From Chloroflexota bacterium (GTDB lineage Bacteria > Chloroflexota > Anaerolineae > UBA1429), in the NCBI GenBank assembly GCA_021372475.1, contig JAJFUJ010000012.1:1-36393 (forward strand): 36,393 bases of DNA, read 5' to 3'. Made by a program: the position numbers and the translations under genes. This document shows positions 26,953 to 32,846 of the stretch, piece after piece (within the stretch, counting starts at the first letter, position 1; each line of letters opens with the position of its first letter). The notes under the pieces were generated by a model. It ran no database searches, was not told the DNA's origin, and saw only the letters and a program-made list of their open reading frames with translations.

Positions 26953-28140
26953 ATGGTAAGTGGTAAAAAGGAAGATTCCTTCTTCCCGCGTAAACTCAAG
27001 ATGGGTATGGTAGGCGGCGGCCGAGATGCTTTTATCGGCGCAGTACACCGTCGTGCGGCGATGCTAGAGGGCAACGTGGAACTCGTCGCCGGCGCCTTTT
27101 CCTCTACACCGGAAAAGAGCAAAGCTTCTGGCAGAGACCTGCTTCTGGCGGATGACCGCATCTACGGCAGCTACGAGGAGATGGTCGCGCGCGAGAACAA
27201 ACTGCCGCTAGGCGAACGTATCGATTTCGTCTCGATCGTGACGCCCAACCACATGCATTACCCGGTCGCCAAGGCCTTTATAGAGGCCGGTTTCAACGTC
27301 GCTTGCGACAAGCCCATGGTGCACACGGTAGCACAGGCAGAGGAACTGGTGCGCCTCGTCAAGGCGCACGATGTAGTCTTTGCCGTCACCTACAACTATA
27401 CCGGCTACCCGATGGTCAAACAGGCGCGCTATCTGGTGGAGACGGGCGCGCTGGGCAAGATCCAAAAGGTCATTGTCGAATACCCGCAAGGCTGGCTGCT
27501 CGACCGCGTCGAGCAAACGGGCAGCAAGCAGGCCGCATGGCGCACCGACCCGTCGCGCTCCGGCGCCTCCGGCTGCATCGGGGATATCGGCTCGCACTGC
27601 GAGAATCTGGTCTCCTACGTCACCGGCTTAAAGCTGGATTCAATCTGCGCCGACCTGACAGCTTTCGCTCCCGGCCGGCCGCTCGATGATGACGGCAATA
27701 TCCTGCTGCGCTTCCAGGGCGGCGCTAAGGGCATCCTGACGGCCTCGCAAATTTGCCCGGGCCAGGAGAACAGCCTAAAGCTGCGTGTATGGGGTACCAA
27801 GGCCGGCCTGGAATGGTTTCAGGAAGACCCGAACTATTTACATGTCCTCTCGAACGTTGCCCCGCAGCAGATTTACAAGCGCGGCAACGGCTATGACTGC
27901 GCGGCAGCCGCGGCCAACAGCCGCATTCCCAGCGGGCACCCCGAGGGCTTTATCGAGGGATTCGCCAACGTGTACCGTAACTTTTGCGACACGATTCGCT
28001 GCAAGCTGATGGGCACAGAGCCCACCGATATTATGCTCGATTTCCCGCATGTCGAGGACGGCGCGCGCGGCGTGTACTTTATTAACAAAGCGGTCGAGAG
28101 CAGCGCCTCCACAGTCAAATGGCTGCCGGCTGCTTATTGA
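26953..28140 (+). CDS. Gfo/Idh/MocA family oxidoreductase
   Basis: The 395-residue protein has an N-terminal Rossmann domain (KMGMVGGGRDAFIGAVHRRA), the segment VSIVTPNHMHYPVAKAFIEAG, and the catalytic lysine K120 in CDKPM. The C-terminal domain holds DIGSHCEN with H215, the usual second catalytic residue. Such enzymes oxidise or reduce a sugar, inositol or sugar-acid hydroxyl with NAD(P). AGGAGGG lies just before the start. The next gene, a xylose-isomerase-like TIM barrel, starts 23 bases after the stop. This pairing is common in inositol and rare-sugar catabolism, but the substrate cannot be fixed here. Confidence 0.94.
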   Translation: MVSGKKEDSFFPRKLKMGMVGGGRDAFIGAVHRRAAMLEGNVELVAGAFSSTPEKSKASGRDLLLADDRIYGSYEEMVARENKLPLGERIDFVSIVTPNHMHYPVAKAFIEAGFNVACDKPMVHTVAQAEELVRLVKAHDVVFAVTYNYTGYPMVKQARYLVETGALGKIQKVIVEYPQGWLLDRVEQTGSKQAAWRTDPSRSGASGCIGDIGSHCENLVSYVTGLKLDSICADLTAFAPGRPLDDDGNILLRFQGGAKGILTASQICPGQENSLKLRVWGTKAGLEWFQEDPNYLHVLSNVAPQQIYKRGNGYDCAAAAANSRIPSGHPEGFIEGFANVYRNFCDTIRCKLMGTEPTDIMLDFPHVEDGARGVYFINKAVESSASTVKWLPAAY

Positions 28141-28163
28141 TACCTGCATAAAGGAGAGTTACA

Positions 28164-29153
28164 ATGGCTAGACCAGTTACTCTATTCACTGGGCAGTGGG
28201 CGGATCTCCCGCTGGCCGAGTTAGCCCCCAAGGCGCGTGATTTCGGCTATGACGGCCTGGAATTGGCCTGTTGGGGTGATCATTTTGACGTGAGCCGCGC
28301 TCTGGCTGAGCCGGGCTATTGCCAGGGACGGCGCGACCTCCTGGCCAAAAACGGTTTGAATGTCTGGTCAATCAGCATGCACCTGGTGGGCCAGATGGTC
28401 TGCGATATGAACGACTTTCGCACCGACGGCTTTGCCCCTCAAGAGCTGGCCGGCAAGCCCGAGGAAAAGCGCACCTGGGCTATTGAAATGGTAAAAAAGT
28501 CAGCCAAGGCGGCCAAGAAGCTTGGCGTAAGCGTTGTTAACGGTTTCACCGGTTCATCGATCTGGCATATGCTATATGCTTTCCCGCCGTATGATTTTGC
28601 CAAGATCGATGAGGGGTACAAGTACTTTGCGGACAAGTGGAATCCCATCCTGGATGTGTTCAAGGCTGAGGGAGTCAAGTTCGCTCTGGAGGTCCACCCC
28701 ACCGAGATAGCCTTTGATATCATTACCGCCAAGCGCACCCTGGCAGCCCTCGATAACCGCCCCGAGTTCGGCTTTAACTTTGATCCAAGCCACCTGCTCT
28801 GGCAGGGAGTCGACCCGGTGCGTTTTATCGAGGAATTCCCGGATCGTATTTTCCACGTGCATCTCAAGGATGCGGCCACGCTGCTGGATGGCTATACCGG
28901 CATCCTGGCCTCGCATCTCAACTTTGGCGAGGCGCACCGCGGCTGGGACTTTCGTTCGCCCGGCCACGGCGATGTCGATTTCGAAGCCATCATCCGCCAG
29001 CTCAATCGCATCGGCTACACGGGGCCGCTTTCGGTGGAGTGGGAGGATTCGGGGATGGAGCGCGAATACGGCGCCCGCGACGCCTGCGAGTTCGTGCGCC
29101 GCAGCGATTTTACCAGTTCGCAAGTGGCCTTCGACGCCGCATTCAGCAAATAG
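28164..29153 (+). CDS. Sugar phosphate isomerase/epimerase family protein
   Basis: The 329-residue protein is a xylose-isomerase-like TIM barrel. Metal-site strands are visible: FALEVHPTE (Glu), [10 protein letters not shown] (Asp and His), FHVHLKDA (His, Lys, Asp) and LSVEWEDSG (Glu). Typical reactions are epimerisation or isomerisation of a keto-sugar or dehydration of an inosose. A strong AAAGGAGAG site precedes the start. It is the second gene of a pair with the Gfo/Idh oxidoreductase and is followed by a strong terminator ten bases beyond the stop region. The two genes probably act successively on one sugar or cyclitol. Confidence 0.93.
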
Positions 29154-29166
29154 CGTTATAAACATA

Positions 29167-29195
29167 AAACCGCCCGAAGGTCCTTCGGGCGGTTT
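29167..29195. terminator. Bidirectional rho-independent terminator
   Basis: Arms AAACCGCCCGAAGG and CCTTCGGGCGGTTT pair perfectly around a single central base; in practice the inner GG-CC becomes the loop. A run of A before and T after allows termination on both strands. It lies between two convergent genes. Confidence 0.9.
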
Positions 29196-29200
29196 ATCAT

Positions 29201-30043
29201 TTAGGGTTGGTATGGCTCGGGATGCCAGGGGGCGTTCATTACACCGATGACGCTGGTGGGGTGCTGAGCTTTATCGATGCGGTATGAGTCGCCGGGCTTA
29301 TCCGGTCGCAGCCGCGTGATGTGTTCGTAGGGGGCACGCAGTTGTATGATGCCCCAGCCTTTAGACTGGGCTCGTAATTTACTCAACGCCTCATAAGCTG
29401 CCTTGTTAATCAACTGTCGCGCCACCTCAGGGTGGCGGTGGATGGCGCCCAGGTTGTGATGCATATATTCGTCGGTCGTCAGGGCGCTGCCGTCATCGCG
29501 AGTCATCCCGCGTTTGACTGCGACGGTGATAATCCCCGGGATAAGCGCACGCGCCTCGCGCACCAGTGCTTCATCCCCAGTGGCCAAAATCGAGGGGATG
29601 CCTAGCTCGCTGGCGCATACAGCCAACTCTCCCAGTTCGCCGATGCTGATGCCGTTGATGGATTGGTCAAGGTAATTGAACCATTGCGTATGCGCCAGAT
29701 GTGCATATAACGTGCCGGCCTTGGCGTGCTGGCCTATCCAAGCCACAGCATCGAACGACTCGTCGAGTTCGCTGGGCCAACCGCCCCAGCCGCGCGCCAG
29801 CCAGGCGCGCGCATCCAACACCGCTGGGTTAATGCCGCCAGCGCCGTGTCCATCCGAGACAACCACTTCGGTCGCGCCAGCCTCGTAAAAGCCGCTGACG
29901 GCAGCGTTCACCTCGCGGGTCAGAAATTCGCGCCCCAGGTCATAATAACGCCCGGGATACTGCTCGCCGGCGGGCTGGCACCAGTTGTCATGGTCCAGCA
30001 CCCCGGCCACGCCCTCCATATCCGTCTCGATGAATATCTTCAT
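29201..30043 (-). CDS. M55 family D-aminopeptidase (DppA-type)
   Basis: The 280-residue protein shows the zinc ligands of the DppA family: D8 and E10 in ETDMEGV, H66 in SDGHGAG, H106 in GQHAKAGT and E136 in ISIGELGE. Their spacing is close to that known for Bacillus DppA. Family members hydrolyse D-Ala-D-Ala or other D-amino-acid peptides as decamers. It has no signal peptide. The gene starts two bases after the stop of the CHAT-ATPase gene, and its ribosome binding site (AAAGGAT) overlaps the end of that gene, so the two are translationally coupled. Many M55 genes sit with dipeptide transporters, so this partner is unusual. Confidence 0.93.
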   Translation of the reverse strand: MKIFIETDMEGVAGVLDHDNWCQPAGEQYPGRYYDLGREFLTREVNAAVSGFYEAGATEVVVSDGHGAGGINPAVLDARAWLARGWGGWPSELDESFDAVAWIGQHAKAGTLYAHLAHTQWFNYLDQSINGISIGELGELAVCASELGIPSILATGDEALVREARALIPGIITVAVKRGMTRDDGSALTTDEYMHHNLGAIHRHPEVARQLINKAAYEALSKLRAQSKGWGIIQLRAPYEHITRLRPDKPGDSYRIDKAQHPTSVIGVMNAPWHPEPYQP

Positions 30044-30045
30044 GC

Positions 30046-32769
30046 TTATCCTTTGCCTCTGCTTCTGGCAGCGCGCACCTGGTCGCGTAAAAAGGCGTCT
30101 ATATCGCCTTCCTGTTCCAGCAGCGTGGCGAGCTTGGAATCGGCCAGCGGCACCACCGTCACGCCTTCGTAAGTGGTCGCTGGGAAGGTCGCTTTATGTT
30201 TTTCAGCCGGTTCACTCAGGATAACGAAGGCCAGTTTGATGCCCCGTACCTGCGCTTCGCGCACAACCTCAACCGGCCAGCGCTCGCTAATGGCAGGCGC
30301 GGATTGCCGGCTGACGAGTATAGCCGGCGTATAAGCCGCCCAAAAGGCGTCCTCAGGGCCGGCTGGTTCGACGGTAAGGGCCAGGTCCAGGCGTTCCGTA
30401 TCAACAGCTACCTCTGGCACGATGGTCAGGGCCGGCACAGTGGCAAAGAAAGCCGCGCTGAATGCTTCCCAGGCGGTATCGGCGCGATAGTATCCGCGCG
30501 AACCGAGCGCCTGTGCGCGTAGGTTGCGCAGCCGGCCGTACATCTCATGTTTGATGTCGGCAGGCACCGTGAGGGATTCCGCGGCCGAGGAGGTTTCGGT
30601 TTCATCCTCCGCTTCCTGCGTAAAATATGTACGCAGTGCGCGCTCATACAGCGGATTGCGCAGGCTGCACGGTTGGGTGGGCGCAACGGCGCCGATCATC
30701 TCCAGCGAGGCCAATACCGGGTCGTTGCGGGTGAATGGCATCCGTCGCCCCTCCATCGTGATGCTGCGCAGCCGGCGGCGCTGCAGCGGACGACGCGCAA
30801 TCTCGTGGAGCACGTGGTGGATGTTGTCGTCCTCCAGCAGCATCTGCTGGGCGGCCGCTTCGACCTGCTCAACGCCAATCTCGGGTGCGCCGCTATCCAG
30901 CAGGTGTGCGCAAAGCTGCATGGTCAGGTACGGATGGCCGTGAGCGAGGGTGTAAATCGCCTCGCGCGCCTCGGGCGCGACGGTGACATTATACCGGCGG
31001 AACTGGTCAATCAGCCTGTTGACGCTGTCGCGGTCGAAATCATGCAAGTACACCTTTTCGCAGATATTCAACGGCGATTGATGGCCGAAGGTCAGCGCGT
31101 AGAGGTCAACTGCGCCGGAGAATATAAAGAGATACTTGCTCAGGAGCGGCGTAGTGCTGCGTCCCTGGGTAAAGACAGAGCGCAGTGCGCTGAAAAAGTT
31201 ATCCGATACCTCAGGGCTCAGTGCGCCGACCTCATCCAGCAGCACCACGATGCGCTGGTCAGGCACCTTGCTTGCCAATTGTGTCAGGAATTCGACGAAA
31301 TCGGCGGTGCTTTCGAGGTTGGTGGTCGGAGCGCTGTTTTCCTCTTGCATGTGGGCGCGGAACTCACTCGTCAAGCGGAAGGCCAGGTAGCGGTAACAGG
31401 CTTTGGTATCCTGGGCGCGCAGCACCGAAAGGTCGATAAAGACGGGGCGATAGCGCGGCTGCAGCCGTTCCATCAGGTTGAGCAGCAGGGTAGTCTTACC
31501 CGTCTGACGGGCGCTCAGGATGGCTATGTATTCTGTTACCGAAGGCTGCAGCGCCAACCTGACGACGCGCCGCAGCTCCGGCCGGTCGATCAGCAGGCTT
31601 GCGCCAAAGGTTGAGGTCAGGGGCCCGCGCGTGGTGAAGGGCTCAGCCTTCTCTGCTGTGGGAATGCCCAGCGCGAGCTGCCCGCCTTCAGAAGCATCGC
31701 GTTTTACTACTATGCGGGTTGGGTCGTCGTTCCACAACCTGCCGCTCTGGGAGCGTAAAAAGAGCACCGGGGCCAGCCAGTCGCTCGGTTCGGCGCCGGC
31801 TGCTCCTGCCCCCAGGCGCCCTTCAGCCATGCACTCATCGATCGTGCGGCCCATTGCTAGGGCCTTGTAGAAAAAGCGGCTGAAGCGCGTGGCCGCCTGG
31901 TCCTCGACCGGCCACTGCATCGCTACCACCGCCGGGATTTCCGCCCGCACCAATGAGGGCGCCAATCCGGCCCAGGCGCCGTTTGCAGTATCGCAGGCAT
32001 TCAATACCACCAGGTTCACGCCGAAACGGCAGAACATGTGCGACATCTCGTGCGCTTTGAGCAGCGAAGTGCGCCCATGCTCATCCTCCAGCACCAACGC
32101 TCCCTGCTGCAGCTCGCGGTTATAATGCCCGTGGCCGACATAATGTACCACATCCGGCGTCTGTGTTTGCAGGGCATTTAGCATTTTCTCATAGTTCGCC
32201 TGCGGCAGGACATCGATGCGCACCTGCCCGGCCTGAGTTAGCTCCGCCAATGCTTCCTGAAGCACGTCGATCTCGTGCTGCCAGTTGAGCTGCGCCTGGT
32301 CCAGCGGATTGGCTGCCATCACCAGAATGCTCAGCGAACCGCGCTGGCGCAAGGTGGGGGGAGCAGCGTGTAAACGGAGATAGCGCACAAGCGAGATAAT
32401 CGGGTCGAACACCAAAAAGTTGCTCTTGCGCGAATCGTACAGTAGCTCCCAGGAGAGGCGCGTCAGCTCCCAGGAATCGACGTGCAGCCTGAGCCGCAGC
32501 CCGCGGCTGCGTTCGCGCGCGACCTGGTAGCTCTCGTACCACAGGGTTTGAGCTTCGCGCGACAGCACGCTCTTGAACAAAGCGTTACCCAACTGGGCGG
32601 CTATCTGGCGCGAACGGGGGGCTTGCCCGGCTGCAGCAAGGATATCGGGCGGCAGGTTGAAGCGATAGCGTTCCCCCTCGCCCACCGGCGATGAGAGCAC
32701 TTCAGCGACCCCCGTATATGCCGAAGCATCCCAATCGCTCAGGCGTAGATCAAAACTCAGGTATTCCAT
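30046..32769 (-). CDS. CHAT-domain / P-loop ATPase / nuclease-like fusion protein
   Basis: The 907-residue protein has three parts. First is a CHAT domain, a caspase-like protease fold (about residues 95-345), with SWELLYD, the catalytic His in VGHGH (H213) and Cys in LNACDTA (C259). Second is an AAA-like P-loop ATPase of the STAND-related type (about 395-690), with SARQTGKTT (K425) and VVLLDEVG (D512-E513). Walker A has Ala instead of the first Gly. Third is a C-terminal region (about 720-890) that resembles a restriction-endonuclease-like fold (AWEAFSAAFFA, RLDLALTV with D795, AILVSRQ). There the expected E-x-K is replaced, so it is probably not a nuclease. The start has GGGAG upstream. It may be a sensor-protease in stress or defence; that is inference. 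The M55 gene follows in the same operon. Confidence 0.88.
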   Translation of the reverse strand: MEYLSFDLRLSDWDASAYTGVAEVLSSPVGEGERYRFNLPPDILAAAGQAPRSRQIAAQLGNALFKSVLSREAQTLWYESYQVARERSRGLRLRLHVDSWELTRLSWELLYDSRKSNFLVFDPIISLVRYLRLHAAPPTLRQRGSLSILVMAANPLDQAQLNWQHEIDVLQEALAELTQAGQVRIDVLPQANYEKMLNALQTQTPDVVHYVGHGHYNRELQQGALVLEDEHGRTSLLKAHEMSHMFCRFGVNLVVLNACDTANGAWAGLAPSLVRAEIPAVVAMQWPVEDQAATRFSRFFYKALAMGRTIDECMAEGRLGAGAAGAEPSDWLAPVLFLRSQSGRLWNDDPTRIVVKRDASEGGQLALGIPTAEKAEPFTTRGPLTSTFGASLLIDRPELRRVVRLALQPSVTEYIAILSARQTGKTTLLLNLMERLQPRYRPVFIDLSVLRAQDTKACYRYLAFRLTSEFRAHMQEENSAPTTNLESTADFVEFLTQLASKVPDQRIVVLLDEVGALSPEVSDNFFSALRSVFTQGRSTTPLLSKYLFIFSGAVDLYALTFGHQSPLNICEKVYLHDFDRDSVNRLIDQFRRYNVTVAPEAREAIYTLAHGHPYLTMQLCAHLLDSGAPEIGVEQVEAAAQQMLLEDDNIHHVLHEIARRPLQRRRLRSITMEGRRMPFTRNDPVLASLEMIGAVAPTQPCSLRNPLYERALRTYFTQEAEDETETSSAAESLTVPADIKHEMYGRLRNLRAQALGSRGYYRADTAWEAFSAAFFATVPALTIVPEVAVDTERLDLALTVEPAGPEDAFWAAYTPAILVSRQSAPAISERWPVEVVREAQVRGIKLAFVILSEPAEKHKATFPATTYEGVTVVPLADSKLATLLEQEGDIDAFLRDQVRAARSRGKG

Positions 32770-32816: not shown

Positions 32817-32846
32817 ATTATAAGCATTCTGATATTCCTGGGTCAA
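32817..32846 (-). promoter_or_regulatory. Promoter for the CHAT-ATPase/M55 operon
   Basis: On the minus strand, TTGACC (32841-32846) and a perfect TATAAT (32817-32822) are 18 bases apart. The transcript would start near 32810, about 40 bases before the start codon. Confidence 0.65.

Follow-up and report, generated by a model that had tools for sequence, protein, structure and literature searches.

The window, the whole 36,393-nucleotide stretch of Chloroflexota DNA analysed here, encodes a protein in which a CHAT domain is fused to an AAA_35 NTPase. The best reading of this protein is a CHAT signalling protease gated by ATP and belonging to a family that we call gene B. A steadily expressed NTPase switch would control the CHAT protease, and the M55 metallopeptidase gene that follows would be a passenger; we put the probability of this reading at roughly 0.6. 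Comparison with related genomes suggests that the CHAT-NTPase stands by itself and is related to one of the genes of a two-gene operon, here called A-B, and that the M55 gene is its accidental neighbour. The features of the window on which the argument draws are these:

26953..28140, forward strand: GFO/IDH/MocA oxidoreductase gene, paired with the TIM-barrel gene
28164..29153, forward strand: TIM-barrel (AP_endonuc_2) gene, convergent with the M55 gene
29167..29195, reverse strand: intrinsic-terminator-like hairpin between the convergent M55 and TIM-barrel genes
29201..30043, reverse strand: M55 metallopeptidase (P0002), 280 amino acids, intact open reading frame, probable passenger gene
30046..32769, reverse strand: CHAT-AAA_35 protein (P0001), 907 amino acids, intact open reading frame
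30049..30567, reverse strand: C-terminal domain of P0001, residues 735–907, no assigned fold
30622..31638, reverse strand: AAA_35/STAND-like NTPase (PF14516) and winged-helix-like part of P0001, residues 378–716
31234..31236, reverse strand: Walker B Asp512
31489..31500, reverse strand: P-loop GKTT, residues 424–427
31777..32601, reverse strand: CHAT protease domain (PF12770, 7.5e-35), residues 57–331
31993..31995, reverse strand: codon of Cys259, which with His213 forms the putative CHAT catalytic pair, invariant in 12 homologues
32131..32133, reverse strand: codon of His213
32817..32846, reverse strand: promoter of the CHAT gene, TTGACC-N18-TATAAT, score 11/12, 47 nt before the start codon

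The sample consists of 15 genomes, which make up the window's family and also its whole order in the data set; they are mostly fragmented assemblies, in which gene calls outside the window are mechanical. The CHAT-NTPase is present in 13 of the 15, with one copy each, the copy in G008 being split over two contigs. In the window protein both domains score well above their curated Pfam cut-offs, the CHAT domain with 121 bits against 24 and the AAA_35 domain with 66 bits against 27 (2.7e-18, residues 413–659), and the NTPase has a P-loop and a Walker B motif; the winged-helix part that follows it was assigned by eye. An alignment shows that His213, Cys259, GKTT at 424–427 and Asp512 are invariant across 12 homologues, all from the window's order. 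A sequence-only reading of this DNA had described a CHAT protein with intact His213 and Cys259, fused to a P-loop ATPase, and these results bear both points out; its suggestion that the protein is a candidate signal-gated protease is likewise supported as a reading.

The C-terminal domain (residues 735–907) has no match in Pfam and is missing from the homologues in G003, G004, G005 and G010. It co-occurs with M55 genes (six of eight against none of four), an association that was dropped as both track the same clade. An AlphaFold model of the CHAT protein made from a two-sequence input was unusable (pLDDT 35, pTM 0.26). A PD-(D/E)XK layout for residues 735–907 was rejected, as it is a loose secondary-structure likeness that is no evidence at a pLDDT of 35.

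Full-length co-linear relatives of the CHAT-NTPase are confined to the order, according to a search of 298 genomes of the class. Outside the order the NTPase region (residues 378–716) matches other proteins, with 34–44% identity in the seven cases compared. In all 16 of the listed matches outside the order the matching gene, gene B, lies directly downstream of a larger gene, gene A (among them L153:1823-6486, L152:2485-6157, L151:682-4421, L155:1873-6493, L156:2233-6599, L157:1824-6996, L198:3370-8860 and L199:1793-7310). Gene A encodes a STAND-like NTPase, in most cases together with BNR/Sortilin-type beta-propeller repeats. Gene B encodes an AAA_35 NTPase with a variable C-terminal part, which is TIR-like in family f7 (two proteins, one just above the Pfam cut-off and the other just below), and a CHAT domain in f3; in f39 and f8 it comprises a membrane segment, recognised by eye, and a beta-rich part.

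In a tree of the NTPase module, a quick one with some long branches, the CHAT-NTPases of the order fall within gene B, next to the genes that carry TIR (SH-aLRT 89). The window protein thus lies within the gene B clade, and no gene A is found directly upstream of it. The CHAT domain is N-terminal in the order and C-terminal in f3, which suggests two separate acquisitions. The A-B operon, conserved with its exchangeable effectors over several families of Anaerolineae, is possibly an undescribed and separate two-gene signalling operon with interchangeable effector domains, and attention moves to it from the CHAT-M55 pair. We tentatively propose, as a possibility short of an even chance, that a sensor, gene A, controls an effector, gene B, and that the B gene of the window's order left the operon, gained an N-terminal CHAT domain and became a core gene, partnering A in trans in most genera and acting alone elsewhere. 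Should A-B prove to be such a system, the known set would gain a STAND-type module that senses through a beta-propeller and has TIR and CHAT outputs, and the window's order would be an example of an effector NTPase turning into a core gene.

Homologues of gene A (E-values of 1e-116 to 1e-262) are present in ten of the 15 genomes of the order, away from the CHAT gene. None was found in the window's genome (98% complete), in G002 and G003 (both 99% complete), in G014 or in G007. Where the contig permits, gene A of the order is mostly directly downstream of dnaE, which encodes the DNA polymerase III alpha subunit. This arrangement is common to f42 and one f8 genome (loci of all these groups: L182:3-7346, L184:1-7257, L185:2-6456, L190:314-7743, L192:28-7583 and L199:3474-8999), and in the f8 genome the gene order is dnaE-A-B (L199). 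It is possible that gene A and the CHAT-NTPase are partners in trans in most genera, but such a partnership cannot be a requirement in all; as gene A is missing from the window's genome and from G002, the switch there would have to do without it. Frames of about 1600 amino acids in which HEAT repeats precede STAND-type NTPase modules in tandem are also present in three genomes of the order (L018, L020 and L021). These were considered as close kin of the CHAT-NTPase and rejected, being only distant relatives.

In the proposed mechanism a signal, possibly relayed by gene A where that gene is present, would reach the NTPase, which would then undergo a nucleotide-dependent rearrangement or oligomerisation. 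This change would release the CHAT protease, which would then cleave a single target or a small number of them, and the cleavage would lead to a response in signalling or cell death.

The promoter of the CHAT gene is conserved in the order. A TTGAC[C/G]-N18-TATAAT site (11/12) is present 36–65 nt upstream of the CHAT start in eight of 13 genomes, and weaker matches (10/12) are present in two further genomes. As a control, sites scoring at least 11/12 at a comparable distance were counted at the same loci and found for only four of 131 genes, a set that includes CHAT genes. The site is present where M55 is linked (G000, which is the window's genome, G002 and G006) and also where it is not (G009, G013, G012, G004 and G003), the promoter therefore belongs to CHAT and suggests steady expression of that gene. 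The strong promoter that had been placed before the gene pair is confirmed as a near-consensus site that is present at the same position in other genera. The terminator placed after the pair is confirmed as a terminator-like hairpin (29195-29167), which may serve both of the convergent genes. The CHAT and M55 genes probably share one transcript.

The sequence-only reading had gone further and proposed that the two genes form a system tied to wall-peptide turnover. In such a unit the CHAT protein would sense an envelope or peptide signal and would activate the M55 peptidase, or be informed by it, in the turnover of D-peptides or wall peptides. The shared promoter and terminator are in favour of a unit, as is the spacing: open reading frame coordinates confirm that the M55 gene starts two bases after the CHAT gene in the window, and M55 directly follows CHAT in three genera (2 bp in G000, a 4-bp overlap in G002, 17 bp in G006). 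These are three of the six genomes with both genes. In G002 the pair has moved together, remaining joined although it is parted from the TIM-barrel gene. The three linked genomes all belong to one rpoB clade, with G001 and G007 (support 100/99), so a single origin of the adjacency is the simplest reading. Within this clade the pair is kept in all three genomes with a readable downstream side, with CHAT proteins that are only 52% identical. The CHAT gene of G001 is cut by a contig end and M55 was not found there, neither gene was found in G007, and G014 has no rpoB match and hence is absent from the tree.

The wider distribution is against a unit. M55 genes of the window's clade are present in seven of the 15 genomes of the order; CHAT occurs without them in seven genomes and apart from them in G008, G009 and G014, and the DNA retrieved for seven loci outside the order that carry the same M55 clade showed no CHAT-NTPase. 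A search for conserved adjacency had been suggested as a check, and the adjacency does repeat in three genera of one clade, but in most genomes CHAT is without M55 or apart from it. As a background control, a single concatenated query was used to look for other tight gene pairs of the window in the same genomes. The MnmE and glycosyltransferase genes, which are 11 bp apart and between which we know of no functional link, are adjacent in all ten other genomes where both were found, and the oxidoreductase and TIM-barrel genes in 13 of 13. CHAT-M55 linkage, at two of five other genomes, is below these values in a control that rests on few gene pairs. Since unrelated tight pairs are kept better, the linkage is not above background, and we consider a functional CHAT-M55 unit highly improbable; the proposed tie to wall-peptide turnover is not supported. 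In a lineage that preserves gene order well, two intact genes lying close together say little in favour of a system. The best reading of the pairing is not a system but an operon arrangement specific to one clade, in which M55 would have come to lie downstream as a passenger of the CHAT promoter. Given its retention in that clade, it is conceivable that co-expression brings a mild benefit.

The CHAT gene also has other downstream neighbours. It is followed by truD, which encodes a tRNA pseudouridine synthase, in G009 (29 bp, L044:3636-7567) and G010 (10 bp, L049:137-3503), and by a histidine kinase gene in G008.

Two further explanations concern the CHAT-NTPase itself. A resident regulator is favoured by its core, vertically inherited distribution and by the absence of defence genes around it, and one form this could take is a HetF-like developmental or cell-division regulator, a core CHAT protein that would control division or morphology and have no part in defence. 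HetF is the best NCBIfam match of the window protein, over the CHAT domain only, but the score is 70.9 bits against an equivalog cut-off of 1200, and HetF has TPR and transmembrane parts where the window protein has an NTPase; we regard a HetF-like role as unlikely. Effector exchange among the relatives argues for a conflict-type ancestry, and the protein could be an anti-phage abortive-infection protein in which the NTPase would sense infection and the CHAT domain would kill the cell. In different relatives the same NTPase bears a TIR-like, a CHAT or a membrane effector, an exchange that is typical of conflict systems, and a cyanobacterial CHAT-AAA_35 protein is encoded on a plasmid beside ParD and RelE/ParE genes. 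Against this, the gene is a nearly universal single copy in the order and has no adjoining defence genes. Proximity to defence islands had been named as a check, and no such setting was seen; the surrounding genes are for tRNA modification, proline synthesis, sugar metabolism, a topoisomerase and the like. PADLOC gave no full-length match for the window proteins, only partial CHAT or weak NTPase matches, among them a partial match of SAVED_CHAT to the CHAT protein, and none for six other window genes that were scanned. An anti-phage role therefore appears quite improbable, and the NTPase-controlled signalling protease is the reading that we prefer. Carriage of the CHAT-NTPase by viruses was also considered and rejected, as 22 pattern matches included no relative.

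The M55 protein belongs to the Peptidase_M55 family (PF04951, 1.2e-47, 163 bits against a cut-off of 25). Asp8, Glu10, His66, His106, Glu136 and His118 are invariant in seven homologues and align with those in the structure of Bacillus subtilis DppA (1hi9). In DppA the corresponding residues are five metal ligands and the active-site histidine. The protein had been described as a DppA-type peptidase with all five metal ligands; the family and the ligands hold, but it is not DppA itself, scoring 99 bits against the NCBIfam equivalog cut-off of 430. It is best read as a separate enzyme that probably acts on D-amino-acid peptides. M55 is more constantly accompanied by the convergent TIM-barrel gene, found in five of the seven genomes with this M55 clade (G000, G006, G008, G009 and G011); in G008 M55 comes after topoisomerase I. 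In the window (26953-30043) the oxidoreductase and TIM-barrel pair lies tail to tail with M55, with a hairpin terminator in common, and this layout too recurs in five of the seven genomes with the M55 clade.

No description of the A-B pair or of CHAT-M55, and no paper containing both 'CHAT domain' and AAA_35, was found in a literature search whose coverage excluded most subscription journals. Kaur et al. 2020 (PMC7159879) describe NTPase conflict systems with exchangeable effectors from multicellular bacteria, Chloroflexi among them; the word 'CHAT' is absent from the searched text of that paper. CHAT is the protease of Craspase (PMC9729208) and occurs together with TIR in a DGR target protein (PMC10907252).

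Among known proteins, B. subtilis DppA resembles the window's peptidase in its M55 family, its full set of metal ligands and its active-site histidine; the window M55 differs in having a C-terminal region of its own, no dipeptide transporter alongside and a score far under the equivalog cut-off. The TPR-CHAT of Craspase and SAVED-CHAT proteins are, like the window protein, CHAT proteases governed by another module, but they are gated by a CRISPR RNA complex or a cyclic oligonucleotide sensor domain and have no AAA_35 NTPase. HetF of Anabaena shares the CHAT domain, with TPR and transmembrane parts in place of the NTPase. It is a core regulator and putative protease with a required active site, and as part of the divisome it interacts with FtsI (PMC8406250).

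A protein of Tolypothrix sp. PCC 7910 (WP_167727962.1) has the same domain order as the window protein, with CHAT at residues 57–322 and AAA_35 at 376–706. It is a distant relative (26.8% identity over matched pieces), lacks the C-terminal domain and is plasmid-borne; its gene is followed after 12 bp by an AAA_35-GUN4 gene, near ParD and RelE/ParE genes (L158:2836-7491). The gene B proteins (L152:2485-4122, L153:1823-3520 and L156:2233-4545) share the NTPase module of the window protein at 34–44% identity, and the f3 member also carries CHAT. Gene B proteins have C-terminal effectors of several kinds and their genes always adjoin gene A; the window protein, by contrast, has an N-terminal CHAT domain and comes from a genome without gene A.
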